Notes under the pieces: model-generated
What the model saw: the letters and a program-made list of their open reading frames with translations, nothing else
What the model was told of the DNA's origin: nothing
Database searches by the model: none
Assembly: GCA_023261505.1 (NCBI GenBank)
Contig: JAHFOV010000015.1
Location: 1-40,444, forward strand
Length of the DNA: 40,444 nt
Source: Planctomycetota bacterium
Lineage (GTDB): Bacteria; Planctomycetota; Brocadiia; Brocadiales; Bathyanammoxibiaceae
Direction: 5' to 3'
In this document: positions 16,775 through 21,221 of the stretch, piece after piece
Numbering within the stretch: the first letter of the stretch is position 1
Layout: each line of letters opens with the position of its first letter
Program-made: the position numbers and the translations under genes

Positions 16775-16803
16775 TTGACAGGTATTTTTCACCTCTATAT
16801 AAT
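16775..16803 (+). promoter_or_regulatory. Consensus sigma70 promoter of the amidase operon
   Basis: Perfect TTGACA (16775-16780), 17-bp spacer and perfect TATAAT (16798-16803). Transcription would begin about 16810, leaving only about 20 nt before the ATG at 16830. It should drive the overlapping amidase, endonuclease V, archaemetzincin and DUF192 genes. Confidence 0.85.
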
Positions 16804-16829: not shown

Positions 16830-17600
16830 ATGAAGCAGTCCTGGAAGGTCAAGAAAAATTCTTTATCCTTCTTTCCACGTTGGAAGATAGTATTTTTTCT
16901 TCTCCTTCCTATTCTGGTTGTTCTTGGCCTTTCTATCAGTCTTCCCCTGCTATTGTTAAAGAAAAGGCAGCCCGACTTGGAAACCCTGTGCAGAACCGAA
17001 GTTCCTGAGAACCACTGGCGGTTCATAGTGCTACATCATAGCGCCACTCGTGAGGGCTCCGCAGCCAGGTTTGACACCTTTCACCGCAATGTAAGGGGAT
17101 GGGAAAACGGCCTCGGCTACCATTTCGTCATAGGCAATGGAAATGGCTCTGGAGATGGAGAGATAGAGGTGGGTAAACGCTGGAGGAAACAACTCTCCGG
17201 CGCCCATGCAGGTGACCCCATATATAACCGTCAGGGTATAGGTATCTGTCTTGTGGGGAATTTTGAAGAAGGAGATAAACCCACCAAGCGGCAGATTAAG
17301 TCTTTGATAAGAGTTGTTAATTATTTGTCTCAAAAATACGACATTCCGCTATCCTCTATTGTCATGCATAAGGAGGTTCATGATACAGCTTGCCCTGGGA
17401 AGAATTTCCCGTACAAGAAGTTGATGGACAGCTTAAGCCGCTTAAGGCGGACGGTCTCTAAAGAGGGTAAGAGCCAAAACCACGCGGAACGGGCGCAGGG
17501 ACAAATTTCAAAATCCAAATGTCAAATGAAACCCAAAGTCCAAATGTCAAATAAAGTCCCCACTTTGGCATTTGGGCTTTGTAATTTGGATTTTACCTAA
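16830..17600 (+). CDS. Membrane-anchored N-acetylmuramoyl-L-alanine amidase (PGRP/Amidase_2)
   Basis: Zinc amidase of the peptidoglycan-recognition fold, probably cutting the bond between MurNAc and L-Ala in the periplasm. A basic N-terminus and one hydrophobic segment (about 19-43) anchor it, with the catalytic domain outside. Zinc ligands are visible: one of the histidines in FIVLHHSAT (69/70), His180 in VMHKEVHD and Cys188 in ACPGKNFP. GYHFVIGNG and GIGICLVGNFE are typical core strands. The last 32 residues (from about 225) come from a dispersed repeat and are not part of the fold. The stop TAA overlaps the next ATG as TAATG. A short 5' leader follows a consensus promoter. Confidence 0.88.
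   Translation: MKQSWKVKKNSLSFFPRWKIVFFLLLPILVVLGLSISLPLLLLKKRQPDLETLCRTEVPENHWRFIVLHHSATREGSAARFDTFHRNVRGWENGLGYHFVIGNGNGSGDGEIEVGKRWRKQLSGAHAGDPIYNRQGIGICLVGNFEEGDKPTKRQIKSLIRVVNYLSQKYDIPLSSIVMHKEVHDTACPGKNFPYKKLMDSLSRLRRTVSKEGKSQNHAERAQGQISKSKCQMKPKVQMSNKVPTLAFGLCNLDFT
17501..17595. repeat. CAAAT/ATTTG dispersed repeat inside the amidase 3' end
   Basis: Left arm carries 'ATCCAAATGTCAAATG' and 'GTCCAAATGTCAAAT' units; the right arm 'TTTGGCATTTGGGCTTTG' and 'TAATTTGGATTT' complements it. It is read in frame as the C-terminal tail of the amidase and ends just before the endonuclease V start. Confidence 0.8.
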
Positions 17601-18370
17601 TGAGATTTAGAAAGCTCCACCCTTGGCGGGTAAGCTATCACGAGGCTGTAAGGCTCCAGGATAGGTTAAGGGAGTGTCTTGTCCTCAAAGGATTTAAAGG
17701 GTTGCCCCGTACTATAGCAGGGGCAGACGTGGCTTATAGCAAGCAAACTAACCAGGTATACGCCGGAATCGTAGTCTTTGATTTTCGCAGCATGGAACCC
17801 CTTGACAAGTCCTTTGCTGTAGCAAAGGCTAGTTTTCCTTACGTTCCTGGCCTTCTTAGTTTTAGAGAGGCGCCGATTTTGTTGAGGGCCTTTAGCCGGC
17901 TAAAGAGTGAACCCGACGTCCTGCTTTTTGATGGGCAGGGTATTGCCCATCCCAGGGGTTTCGGCCTTGCCAGCCACATGGGACTCCTACTTGATAAGCC
18001 CTCAGTGGGCTGTGCCAAGGACGTTCTTGTGGGGGAGTACGGGCCCGTAGGCAGTGAGGCTGGGTCATATTCTTACCTCTTTTACAAAGGTAAACGTGTA
18101 GGAGCGGCAGTGAGAACCAGGAAGCTAGTTAAGCCAGTTTTTGTCTCTCAAGGGCATAAAATTAGTTTATCTTCCTCCATAAAGATAGTATTCAGCAGTT
18201 GCAGGGGTTATAGGCTTCCGGAACCTTTACGTTGGGCCCATAACCTGGTCAGTCAGTTGAGATCCTCCTTCGAGGAAAAGTCCAAAATAAAAGCGGGTCA
18301 TTACGAGGGGCGAAGCCCCGAAGCAATCCCTGCAACACACAATGAGATTACTTCGCTTCGCTCGCAATGA
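17600..18370 (+). CDS. nfi: Endonuclease V
   Basis: DNA repair enzyme that nicks DNA (or RNA) at the second phosphodiester 3' of deoxyinosine and related deaminated bases. The RNase H-like catalytic residues align with characterised enzymes: Asp43 in AGADVAYS, Tyr80 in the wedge FPYVPG, Glu90 in SFREAP, Asp111 in LLFDGQG and His117 in IAHPRGFG. Gly-rich GLASHMGLL and the SVGCAKDVLVG strand follow. The start overlaps the amidase stop (TAATG). The last 24 or so residues (from about 233) are encoded by a dispersed palindromic element rather than native sequence. Confidence 0.93.
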   Translation: MRFRKLHPWRVSYHEAVRLQDRLRECLVLKGFKGLPRTIAGADVAYSKQTNQVYAGIVVFDFRSMEPLDKSFAVAKASFPYVPGLLSFREAPILLRAFSRLKSEPDVLLFDGQGIAHPRGFGLASHMGLLLDKPSVGCAKDVLVGEYGPVGSEAGSYSYLFYKGKRVGAAVRTRKLVKPVFVSQGHKISLSSSIKIVFSSCRGYRLPEPLRWAHNLVSQLRSSFEEKSKIKAGHYEGRSPEAIPATHNEITSLRSQ

Positions 18371-18371
18371 C
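18297..18371. repeat. GTCATTGC-type palindromic element (75 bp)
   Basis: Element with near-perfect terminal inverted repeats, GTCATTACGAG on the left and CTCGCAATGAC on the right. It encodes the C-terminal tail of endonuclease V in one frame and, from base 18342, the start codon and first ten residues of the archaemetzincin in another. A longer relative is at 32366-32500 and a partial one ends at 33800. Confidence 0.85.
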
Positions 18372-18968
18372 ATTTTGGTTTTTCTGTTTCTAAGCATTGT
18401 TATGGGTGCTCCCAGTATTGCGCGGCCTTCAAAAAAAGTAGTGCACCTTATTCCCGTAGGGGTAGTAGAAGAAGATCTTCTAAAGGAACTGGCTCAAGCT
18501 CTGAGAGATAAACTTGGTGTGACTGTGGAGGTGGGTGAAGCGGTAAAGATTCCAAAGACGGCCTTTGACTCAAGGCGCAATCAGTATAATTCCACCCAGA
18601 TACTTCAGAATCTACTGACAGCCGGGCCCTCTGTGAAAGCCCTGTCCCTGGCGGTAACAGAGGTGGACCTTTTTGTCTCTAATCTAAATTTTGCCTTTGG
18701 GGAGGCCCGTCCGCCCGATAATATAGCCATTATATCCTTATGTCGTCTCAGACAGGAATTCTATGGGATGCCAGCAGACCGTAGCATACTGATGGAGAGG
18801 ATGGTTAAGGAGGCAGTTCATGAAATCGGTCATGTCTGGGGCTTGGGGCACTGTTCAAACCCACGTTGTGTTATGTTCTTCTCTAACAGTTTAGCAGATA
18901 CTGACCGAAAATCGGACGCCTTCTGCAAAGATTGTAAGGGTTTTCTGAGGGATGATGTTAAGGAGTGA
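18342..18968 (+). CDS. amzA: Archaemetzincin-family zinc metalloprotease
   Basis: 208-aa metzincin-type peptidase. The extended zinc motif HEIGHVWGLGHC gives His160, Glu161, His164 and His170, followed by Cys171, Cys176 and a CKDC pair (195/198), the diagnostic four-cysteine pattern of archaemetzincins. The CVM after the zinc motif supplies the Met-turn. Residues 11-25 are hydrophobic (ILVFLFLSIVMGAPS) and look like a signal peptide, so the enzyme may be exported. The ATG and first ten residues lie within a dispersed repeat, and the gene overlaps endonuclease V by 29 bp and the DUF192 gene by 17 bp. An ATG at 18402 is an alternative start lacking the signal. Confidence 0.88.
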   Translation: MRLLRFARNDILVFLFLSIVMGAPSIARPSKKVVHLIPVGVVEEDLLKELAQALRDKLGVTVEVGEAVKIPKTAFDSRRNQYNSTQILQNLLTAGPSVKALSLAVTEVDLFVSNLNFAFGEARPPDNIAIISLCRLRQEFYGMPADRSILMERMVKEAVHEIGHVWGLGHCSNPRCVMFFSNSLADTDRKSDAFCKDCKGFLRDDVKE

Positions 18969-19446
18969 TATAAAAAAGCTGCTGCCTTATGCAGTTGCAG
19001 GCCTTTTACTCACATCATTAGCCGTATTATTAGCCGTGGATTTCTTTTCCTATGGGCATACTGCTAAAGAAGATAGTGAGGGTTACAAATTAAAAGTGGC
19101 AGGGAGCGAAGTCACCTTGGAATTGGCCTGTACGCCCTGGGAGCGTCAACGAGGATTGAAACACAGAAATTGGCTTCCTGAGGATCACGGCATGCTTTTC
19201 ATATTTCCAGAGGATAATTATCTCTCTTTCTGGATGAAGGATACCTATATACCTATTTCCATCGCCTTCGTATCCGAGGGGGGTACCATTACGCAGATTG
19301 AGTCTATGGAGCCCCTCACTCTTAGCAGCCATGTCTCTAAAGAAAGGGTTCGATATGCCCTGGAGATGTCGGCAGGGTGGTTTGAACGGCATGATGTAAA
19401 AGTGGGAGATAGGATAGAGCTACCCCATGTGGTGGCCAGTAATTAG
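18952..19446 (+). CDS. DUF192 family protein with N-terminal membrane anchor or signal
   Basis: 164-aa protein with one hydrophobic segment at about 11-32 (LPYAVAGLLLTSLAVLLAVDFF), then the DUF192 beta domain. Family signatures are ACTPWERQRGLKHRNWL, GMLFIFPEDN and SFWMKDTYIPISIAFV, with the terminal GDRIEL. The domain occurs in exported proteins of unknown biochemical role. Two ATG codons (18952, 18955) are equivalent; the first overlaps the archaemetzincin gene. Last gene of the amidase operon. Confidence 0.87.
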   Translation: MMLRSDIKKLLPYAVAGLLLTSLAVLLAVDFFSYGHTAKEDSEGYKLKVAGSEVTLELACTPWERQRGLKHRNWLPEDHGMLFIFPEDNYLSFWMKDTYIPISIAFVSEGGTITQIESMEPLTLSSHVSKERVRYALEMSAGWFERHDVKVGDRIELPHVVASN

Positions 19447-19523: not shown

Positions 19524-21221
19524 ATGGGAATAAAGGCAGTAATCTTTGACCTGGATGACACCCTTTTTGATTGCACAGGTTTACTTGTAGAGGCCTCCCG
19601 ACGGCGGGCTGCCAAGGCGATGGTGGAGGAGGGGCTACCTGTAAGTGAAGCAGAGGCTTATGAATTACAGAAGAATATAGCAGAGAAACTTGGGCCCTCT
19701 TCCCTGGTGTTTGATGAAATTGCACGGATGTTCGGTAAGGGGCAGGAACTGGTGAAGGCTGCCCTTCGGGCTTATAATAGCAGCGAGGTCTCCAACATCC
19801 AGCCCTTCCCGGACGTGGTCTCCACTCTCAGACAGTTGAAAATGGAAAAATACAAGCTCTTTCTCGTTACCACAGGACTCCATGCCAGGCAAGAGAAAAA
19901 GATAGAACTCCTAGGTATTGCCCCCTTCTTTGACCAAATAATCATTAACGACCAGGAGGTCGGCCTACTTTTAGAGGACTGTTACAGGGGGTTACTAAGA
20001 AAGTATAATATTACGCCTGGAAAGGTAGCCGTGGTAGGAGACCGCGTTCATTCCGAACTTAGGGTAGCCAAAAATATGGGCATGTATGCCATTCAGATGC
20101 TACATGGTCGCTACAAGTCAGAAGCCCCTCTACAGGAAAGCGAAAAACCGGATTACAAAATAAATAAAATGTACCATATCTCCACCATACTGGAATTAAT
20201 AAATAAAGGTAAATTCACGGACAGGCTCAAGATAGTAGCAGTAGGTGGAGGGACGGGTCTTCCTATGGTGCTCCAGGGACTAAAGACCTATAGCAAAAAC
20301 CTTACAGCCCTGGTTACTGTTACCGATTCGGGAAGGAGTTCTGGACGGCTGAGAGAAGAATATGGTGTACTTCCTCCCGGAGACGCCAGGAACTGTATGG
20401 TGGCCCTCTCAGAGACAGAAGAGCAACAAGAAGACCTGTACAAACTCTTCCAGTACCGCTTTGATAGGGGTTCCCTAGAAGGAATGAATCTGGGGAATCT
20501 TCTCATGACGGCACTAACTGATATGACTGGTAGCTTTGAACTTGCCATAAAAAAGGCTAGCAAAATTCTGGCAATAAGTGGTAAGGTGCTTCCCTCTACC
20601 CTGGAGGATACGCATATATGTGCAGAACTGGCTGATGGCACAATGGTGGAGGGAGAATTTAAGGTACGCCAACCAGAAAAACCTCCCATCCAGAGGGTAC
20701 TACTCAAAGCTAATAACGTAGAACCCCTACCCGAGGCCCTAGAGGAAGTCTCTAATGCGGATATTATCGTAATAGGCCCCGGGAGTCTGTACACCAGCGT
20801 TATACCCAATATACTGGTAAAGGGGCTAAGGGAGGCTATCAAAAACTCCAGTGCTACAAAGATATATGTCTGCAACATAGTTACTCAGCCGGGCCAGACC
20901 GATGGCTATAACTCCTCAGACCATATAAAGGCACTTATCGCACACCTGGGAGAGGGTATCCTGGATTATGTACTTGTTAATAGTTGCATGCCTAAAAAAG
21001 AGGTTTTAGAGAAATACGAGCGTGAGGGGGCAAGTATGGTGTGTATTGACCCAGAGACCCGTAACCTGTTCGTGAAGGTAATTGAAGCCGACCTTATTGA
21101 AGATTTAGAGAAGGGTAGAGTCCTCTGGGAGAAACAGGACCTTTTAAGGCACGACCCTGATAAGTTAGCCAATGCAATATGCAGGGTCTATACCCGACTT
21201 CCTCTCTTCTCTAGCAAGTAA
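19524..21221 (+). CDS. Fusion of HAD hydrolase and YvcK/CofD-like gluconeogenesis factor
   Basis: 565-aa protein joining two domains normally encoded separately. Residues 1 to about 230 form a HAD phosphatase: nucleophile motif FDLDDTLFD (Asp9, Asp11), LVTTG for motif II and VVGDRVHSELRVAKNMG for motif IV. From about 236 a full YvcK domain follows: KIVAVGGGTGL, TVTDSGRSSG (265-274), LPPGDARNCM (283-292), then GNLLMTAL and VIGPGSLYTSV. YvcK proteins bind UDP-sugars and affect central carbon flux and cell-wall synthesis. The fusion suggests a phosphatase acting on, or regulated by, the same ligand; this is an inference. The frame is continuous with no internal start suggesting two proteins. Confidence 0.9.
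   Translation: MGIKAVIFDLDDTLFDCTGLLVEASRRRAAKAMVEEGLPVSEAEAYELQKNIAEKLGPSSLVFDEIARMFGKGQELVKAALRAYNSSEVSNIQPFPDVVSTLRQLKMEKYKLFLVTTGLHARQEKKIELLGIAPFFDQIIINDQEVGLLLEDCYRGLLRKYNITPGKVAVVGDRVHSELRVAKNMGMYAIQMLHGRYKSEAPLQESEKPDYKINKMYHISTILELINKGKFTDRLKIVAVGGGTGLPMVLQGLKTYSKNLTALVTVTDSGRSSGRLREEYGVLPPGDARNCMVALSETEEQQEDLYKLFQYRFDRGSLEGMNLGNLLMTALTDMTGSFELAIKKASKILAISGKVLPSTLEDTHICAELADGTMVEGEFKVRQPEKPPIQRVLLKANNVEPLPEALEEVSNADIIVIGPGSLYTSVIPNILVKGLREAIKNSSATKIYVCNIVTQPGQTDGYNSSDHIKALIAHLGEGILDYVLVNSCMPKKEVLEKYEREGASMVCIDPETRNLFVKVIEADLIEDLEKGRVLWEKQDLLRHDPDKLANAICRVYTRLPLFSSK

Follow-up and report, generated by a model that had tools for sequence, protein, structure and literature searches.

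The locus described here raises two questions: whether a haloacid dehalogenase (HAD) domain and a YvcK-type protein are truly joined in one bacterial gene, and what the HAD half does for its partner. The window, i.e. the whole stretch of 40,444 nucleotides analysed from a Planctomycetota bacterium, contains at positions 19524-21221 of the + strand a single open reading frame that starts with ATG, encodes 565 amino acids and has no internal stops, with a Shine-Dalgarno-like GAGGA located 5' of the start codon. An earlier note on this DNA had claimed that both domains lie in one uninterrupted frame, and the profile searches have confirmed this: the Pfam profile HAD_2 matched residues 6-190 (E 6.8e-22), CofD matched residues 237-525 (E 9.9e-105), and the NCBIfam profile TIGR01826 (YvcK) matched residues 237-555 with 351 bits, above its curated cut-off of 196. 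The HAD-like domain comprises residues 1 to about 228 (19524-20207, + strand) and the YvcK/GlmR domain, which has the CofD fold, residues 236-556 (20229-21191, + strand). Alignment of relatives and the AlphaFold2 model located the linker and connecting helix at about residues 213-236 (20160-20228, + strand, for residues 213-235). The earlier note had set the linker at about residues 205-235; its length is conserved, the fused proteins differing only by a single-residue gap in one relative, and its position had to be shifted. This gene encodes the sole YvcK of the source genome, and a second HAD protein, standalone, is encoded on a different contig.

The AlphaFold2 model, built on an alignment containing 59 proteins of the window and of the loci, showed a mean pLDDT of 91.4, indicating a confident prediction of each domain, and a pTM of 0.90, which extends this confidence to the way the two are placed relative to each other. 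Structural comparison with VIA-align 2 revealed that the nearest solved structures are those of BH3568 (2o2z, 2hzb) for the YvcK half (Z 43.7, rmsd 1.5, 308 residues and 46% identity with 2o2z) and of PH1655 (2hoq) for the HAD half (Z 22.0, rmsd 5.5, 225 residues). The top profile of the HAD half was TIGR02253, of the CTE7 hydrolases, which matched residues 3-224 with 118.1 bits, below the cut-off of 169.75, and DSSP on the model showed that motifs I and II are separated by a helical insert, presumably as in C1-cap HADs. The C-terminal half also shares its fold with CofD/FbiA 2-phospho-L-lactate transferase (Z about 23-25), but the score of the corresponding profile TIGR01819 was far under its cut-off (38.4 versus 257.45 bits). 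In the open-licence papers searched, none joined YvcK with a haloacid dehalogenase fusion or with Planctomycetes, in agreement with the idea that the fusion has no described precedent, and no paper on PH1655 or TIGR02253 was found.

The search for the domain pair across genomes, limited to Planctomycetota and Omnitrophota, revealed that the fusion recurs. It was found full length or nearly so and in one frame, with the same linker, in 57 of the 68 genomes of the class of the source (Brocadiales), including Candidatus Brocadia, Jettenia, Loosdrechtia and other Brocadiaceae, and some of the carriers are single-contig genomes. An assembly error, one of the refutations named beforehand, is thus ruled out, and so is a chance frame. 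Four further genomes of the 68 carry the fusion in broken form, either partial (G037, G068), over two contigs (G065) or with a frameshift (G044), and no standalone YvcK was found in any of the 68. In a second class of the phylum the fusion was present in 4 of 9 genomes, belonging to three families; one of these carriers, G114, has it on a 4.5 kb contig, and misbinning was ruled out by the fusion in three more genomes of its class. Among the YvcK matches listed for the remaining planctomycete genomes (294 were sampled in all), all started at query residue 212 or later and lacked the HAD domain, and among those listed for 145 Omnitrophota genomes none had the HAD half. Judged from these genomes, the fusion spans the anammox bacteria together with the planctomycetes most closely related to them, and it appears to be ancient.

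Some irregular copies were also noticed. In G044 (C1:628995-630681) and in L048 (5998-7708) a frameshift near residue 350 splits the fusion gene, possibly as a sequencing error. G048 has two differing full-length copies (contigs C164 and C13), 66% and 63% identical to that of the source, which could be explained either by a mixed bin or by a true duplication. The frames of 876-886 amino acids in G315 and G316 had suggested an extra domain, which was rejected because the additional length is an upstream stop-to-stop reading through GC-rich sequence.

In a quick maximum-likelihood tree the fused YvcK domains formed one clade (SH-aLRT 99), which fits a single fusion event, and the tree of the HAD domains agreed with weaker support (74). 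In ten pairs of relatives the HAD half had dN/dS ratios of 0.02-0.16 and the YvcK half ratios of 0.04-0.14, although these values are rough where dS was close to 1 or higher, as it was in several pairs. Since the ratio of the HAD half is low, like that of the YvcK half, the HAD half is not a decaying remnant.

The catalytic motifs of the HAD half were compared between 58 distinct fused proteins and 32 standalone HADs of the same phylum. Motif I (DLDDTL, 19548-19565, + strand) was the best conserved among the stretches compared, with D9, D11 and T13 of the DxDxT signature present in 58/58 fused proteins. The stretch from T116 of motif II to the fusion-specific R122-Q123 (19869-19892, + strand) has threonine at position 116 in 50 proteins and serine in the other 8, an invariant G118, and on the helix after motif II the residue R122, present in all 58 fused proteins and in none of the 32 standalone HADs. 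In motif IV (GDRVHSE, 20037-20057, + strand) the acidic residues D173 and E178 were kept in every fused protein. The exception is the motif III region (residues 142-153, NDQEVGLLLEDC; 19947-19982, + strand), which has no lysine and in the source protein neither K nor R: the alignment places VGLLLEDC or a similar stretch where 2hoq has GVKKPHPKIF, so that the KKP of PH1655 and the TIGR02253 hydrolases is LLL or LLM in the proteins joined to YvcK. Within residues 147-152 neither K nor R was found in 54 of the 58 fused proteins, the others having K151 (2) or R150 (2); position 146 is basic in 7/58 (R146 in 6, K146 in 1), and 47 of the 58 contain no basic residue at all between 144 and 152. The motif III lysine was present in 32/32 standalone HADs. 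Thus the HAD half has its whole fold and intact motifs I, II and IV but a degenerate motif III, and the description of a complete HAD with both motif I aspartates stands for the fold and for D9 and D11 and fails at motif III. In yeast Pah1 the K496A change in motif III abolishes activity (PMC12357310), which together with the loss of the lysine makes an ordinary phosphatase activity of the HAD half doubtful.

The genes located upstream of the fusion gene in the window are, in order and on the same strand, an amidase, endonuclease V (17600-18370, +), an archaemetzincin of family M54 (18342-18968, +) and a DUF192 protein (18952-19446, +), the last of which often adjoins the fusion gene; endonuclease V and DUF192 are found upstream in relatives too. 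Just upstream of the amidase gene, which starts at 16830, a perfect sigma-70-like TTGACA-17-TATAAT is present (16775-16803); from this consensus match only, it is a putative promoter of the run of five genes ending in the fusion gene. In Brocadiaceae loci the same stretch contains aminotransferase, RnfC, RnfD, RnfG and ScpB genes, as read from their sequences only. Directly downstream of the fusion gene many relatives encode a paralogous HAD that has kept the lysine, and therefore a separate candidate phosphatase exists. In one family (f3) the fusion gene and this standalone HAD adjoin convergent glmM and archaeal-type glmU genes. This arrangement was found in two fully read genomes, in L090 (5295-7848), with 605 bits for glmM and 471 bits versus 292 for the archaeal-type glmU, and by sequence in L091 (174-2715), and GlmU-like matches occur at the equivalent position in G010, G015 and G018; the canonical GlmU cut-off was passed by none of 24 relatives. 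The adjoining glmM and glmU link the locus to UDP-GlcNAc synthesis in this family only, and the locus of the source itself does not have them. A YvcJ/RapZ partner was found in none of the 24 relatives, a weak negative because B. subtilis was absent from the controls that matched.

The YvcK half retains the ligand residues of its family and shows a change of its own. T244, N451, Y498 and R542, equivalent to T14, N218, Y265 and R301 of B. subtilis YvcK, the residues tested there for UDP-GlcNAc binding (PMC5482804), are invariant in the 58 fused proteins, and D268 and N429, equivalent to the predicted uridyltransferase residues D40 and N198 of L. monocytogenes GlmR, are conserved too. The fold and all these residues are thus shared with YvcK/GlmR proteins (TIGR01826, BH3568, B. 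subtilis YvcK, L. monocytogenes GlmR), from which the fusion differs by the added N-terminal HAD and by the loop at residues 268-274 (20325-20345, + strand), DSGRSSG in the source and DSGR(S/H)SG in almost every fused protein versus DDGGSSG in most standalone YvcK. D40 and D41 of Listeria GlmR lie in this loop (PMC10128056). At position 269, equivalent to D41, serine was found in 56 of the 58 fused proteins, and the 25 standalone YvcK have D (16), N (7), S (1) or T (1); since 9 of these 25 also lack the aspartate, its change is not specific to the fusion. Position 271, being R in 58/58 fused proteins and G in 25/25 other YvcK, is fusion-specific in this sample.

In view of the fusion itself, its single YvcK clade, the purifying selection on both halves, the loss of the motif III lysine with the other HAD motifs kept, and the loop change beside retained UDP-GlcNAc-binding residues, the HAD half resembles, from sequence comparison, an old regulator built into the protein more than a functional phosphatase. 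The reading that we prefer, to which we give about an even chance, is that the work is done by YvcK, a protein of the UDP-GlcNAc pathway, and that the HAD half regulates it by binding a phospho-ligand. The YvcK (GlmR) half would act on or sense UDP-GlcNAc and GlcNAc-1-P, and the HAD half would be a former phosphatase turned into a module that binds Mg2+ and a phospho-ligand and regulates YvcK. Its pocket would bind a phosphorylated metabolite and so control YvcK, with turnover by the HAD domain probably absent or slow.

The main rival explanation holds that the active site of the HAD half was rearranged but still works as a phosphatase, which would hydrolyse, beside YvcK, some phosphorylated sugar or nucleotide from the UDP-GlcNAc pathway. 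That motifs I, II and IV do not vary could just as well reflect catalysis that was kept, the HAD motif III residue may be either R or K (PMC3207120), and R122, invariant and confined to the fused proteins, could replace the missing lysine, a role that R146 or R150 could take in some lineages; the basic residues at positions 146 (7 proteins), 150 (2) and 151 (2) are a counterpoint to the regulatory reading, and the similar selection on both halves and the glmM and glmU genes of family f3 also fit an enzyme. However, most fused proteins have no basic residue at 144-152, and R122 lies in the model on the helix that follows motif II, outside the motif III site. We therefore regard an active phosphatase as a real possibility but a somewhat unlikely one. 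The earlier proposal of a built-in working phosphatase is accordingly unsupported, the motif III lysine being gone across two classes and kept in the standalone paralogues, and of the functional link that it implied, the tie to UDP-GlcNAc metabolism is plausible, given the invariant binding residues and the glmM/glmU neighbours of one family.

The HAD half might instead serve only for structure or oligomerisation and bind no ligand. This would agree with the lost motif III and with the confidently packed two-domain model, but a scaffold would not need the nucleophile and metal-binding residues D9, D11, D173 and E178, which are invariant across two classes, and motif I is better conserved than the other stretches compared; this explanation is considered decidedly improbable. 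Least probable is a pyrophosphatase role, in which the HAD half would clear the PPi that YvcK/GlmR sets free on converting UTP and GlcNAc-1-P into UDP-GlcNAc and so pull the reaction forward, since, in spite of the uridyltransferase activity reported for Listeria GlmR (PMC10128056) and of a weak full-length match of the HAD half to PpaX (E 8.7e-15), the PpaX score was 54.8 bits against a cut-off of 218, motif III is lost, and D41, the second of the aspartates implicated in catalysis by GlmR, is S269 in the fusion.

Other modules were found at the N-terminus of YvcK. Receiver domains (PF00072) precede YvcK in L068 (2978-4600, - strand), L086 (585-1910, - strand) and L088 (112-1629, + strand), from one planctomycete and Omnitrophota, and in the YvcK tree these three proteins form with L087 and L089 one clade, separate from the fusion. 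Two apparent N-terminal membrane-spanning segments, read from the sequence only, precede YvcK in L049 (5689-6954), L050 (5764-7065) and L071 (2772-4202). As in the fusion, an extra module has been placed at the N-terminus, although the modules are unrelated, which suggests that the YvcK N-terminus is a site for added input modules. By analogy, these proteins suggest, and do not prove, a regulatory role of the HAD half.

A bolder reading is that, once the two domains had fused, their active sites were remodelled jointly, the HAD site by losing the lysine and gaining R122 and the YvcK loop by gaining R271. The protein would then be a single composite machine, with a phosphate-bound HAD pocket that gates or completes the YvcK site. 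We put this forward tentatively and consider it unlikely as it stands.

It is unsettled whether YvcK/GlmR works chiefly as an enzyme or as a sensor, and how it is regulated, its proposed roles being the activation of GlmS in B. subtilis (PMC7525490) and uridyltransferase activity in Listeria (PMC10128056). The fusion offers a natural handle on this question, as a fixed and apparently ancient arrangement with signature changes in both halves, and it illustrates clearly how a domain with a phosphatase fold can lose a catalytic residue and still be under strong selection. Anammox bacteria are central in the nitrogen cycle, and their possession of a peptidoglycan wall came to be recognised only in 2015 (PMC4432595). 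If the two sites were indeed remodelled together, the anammox bacteria and their relatives would own a metabolite-gated control of UDP-GlcNAc supply.
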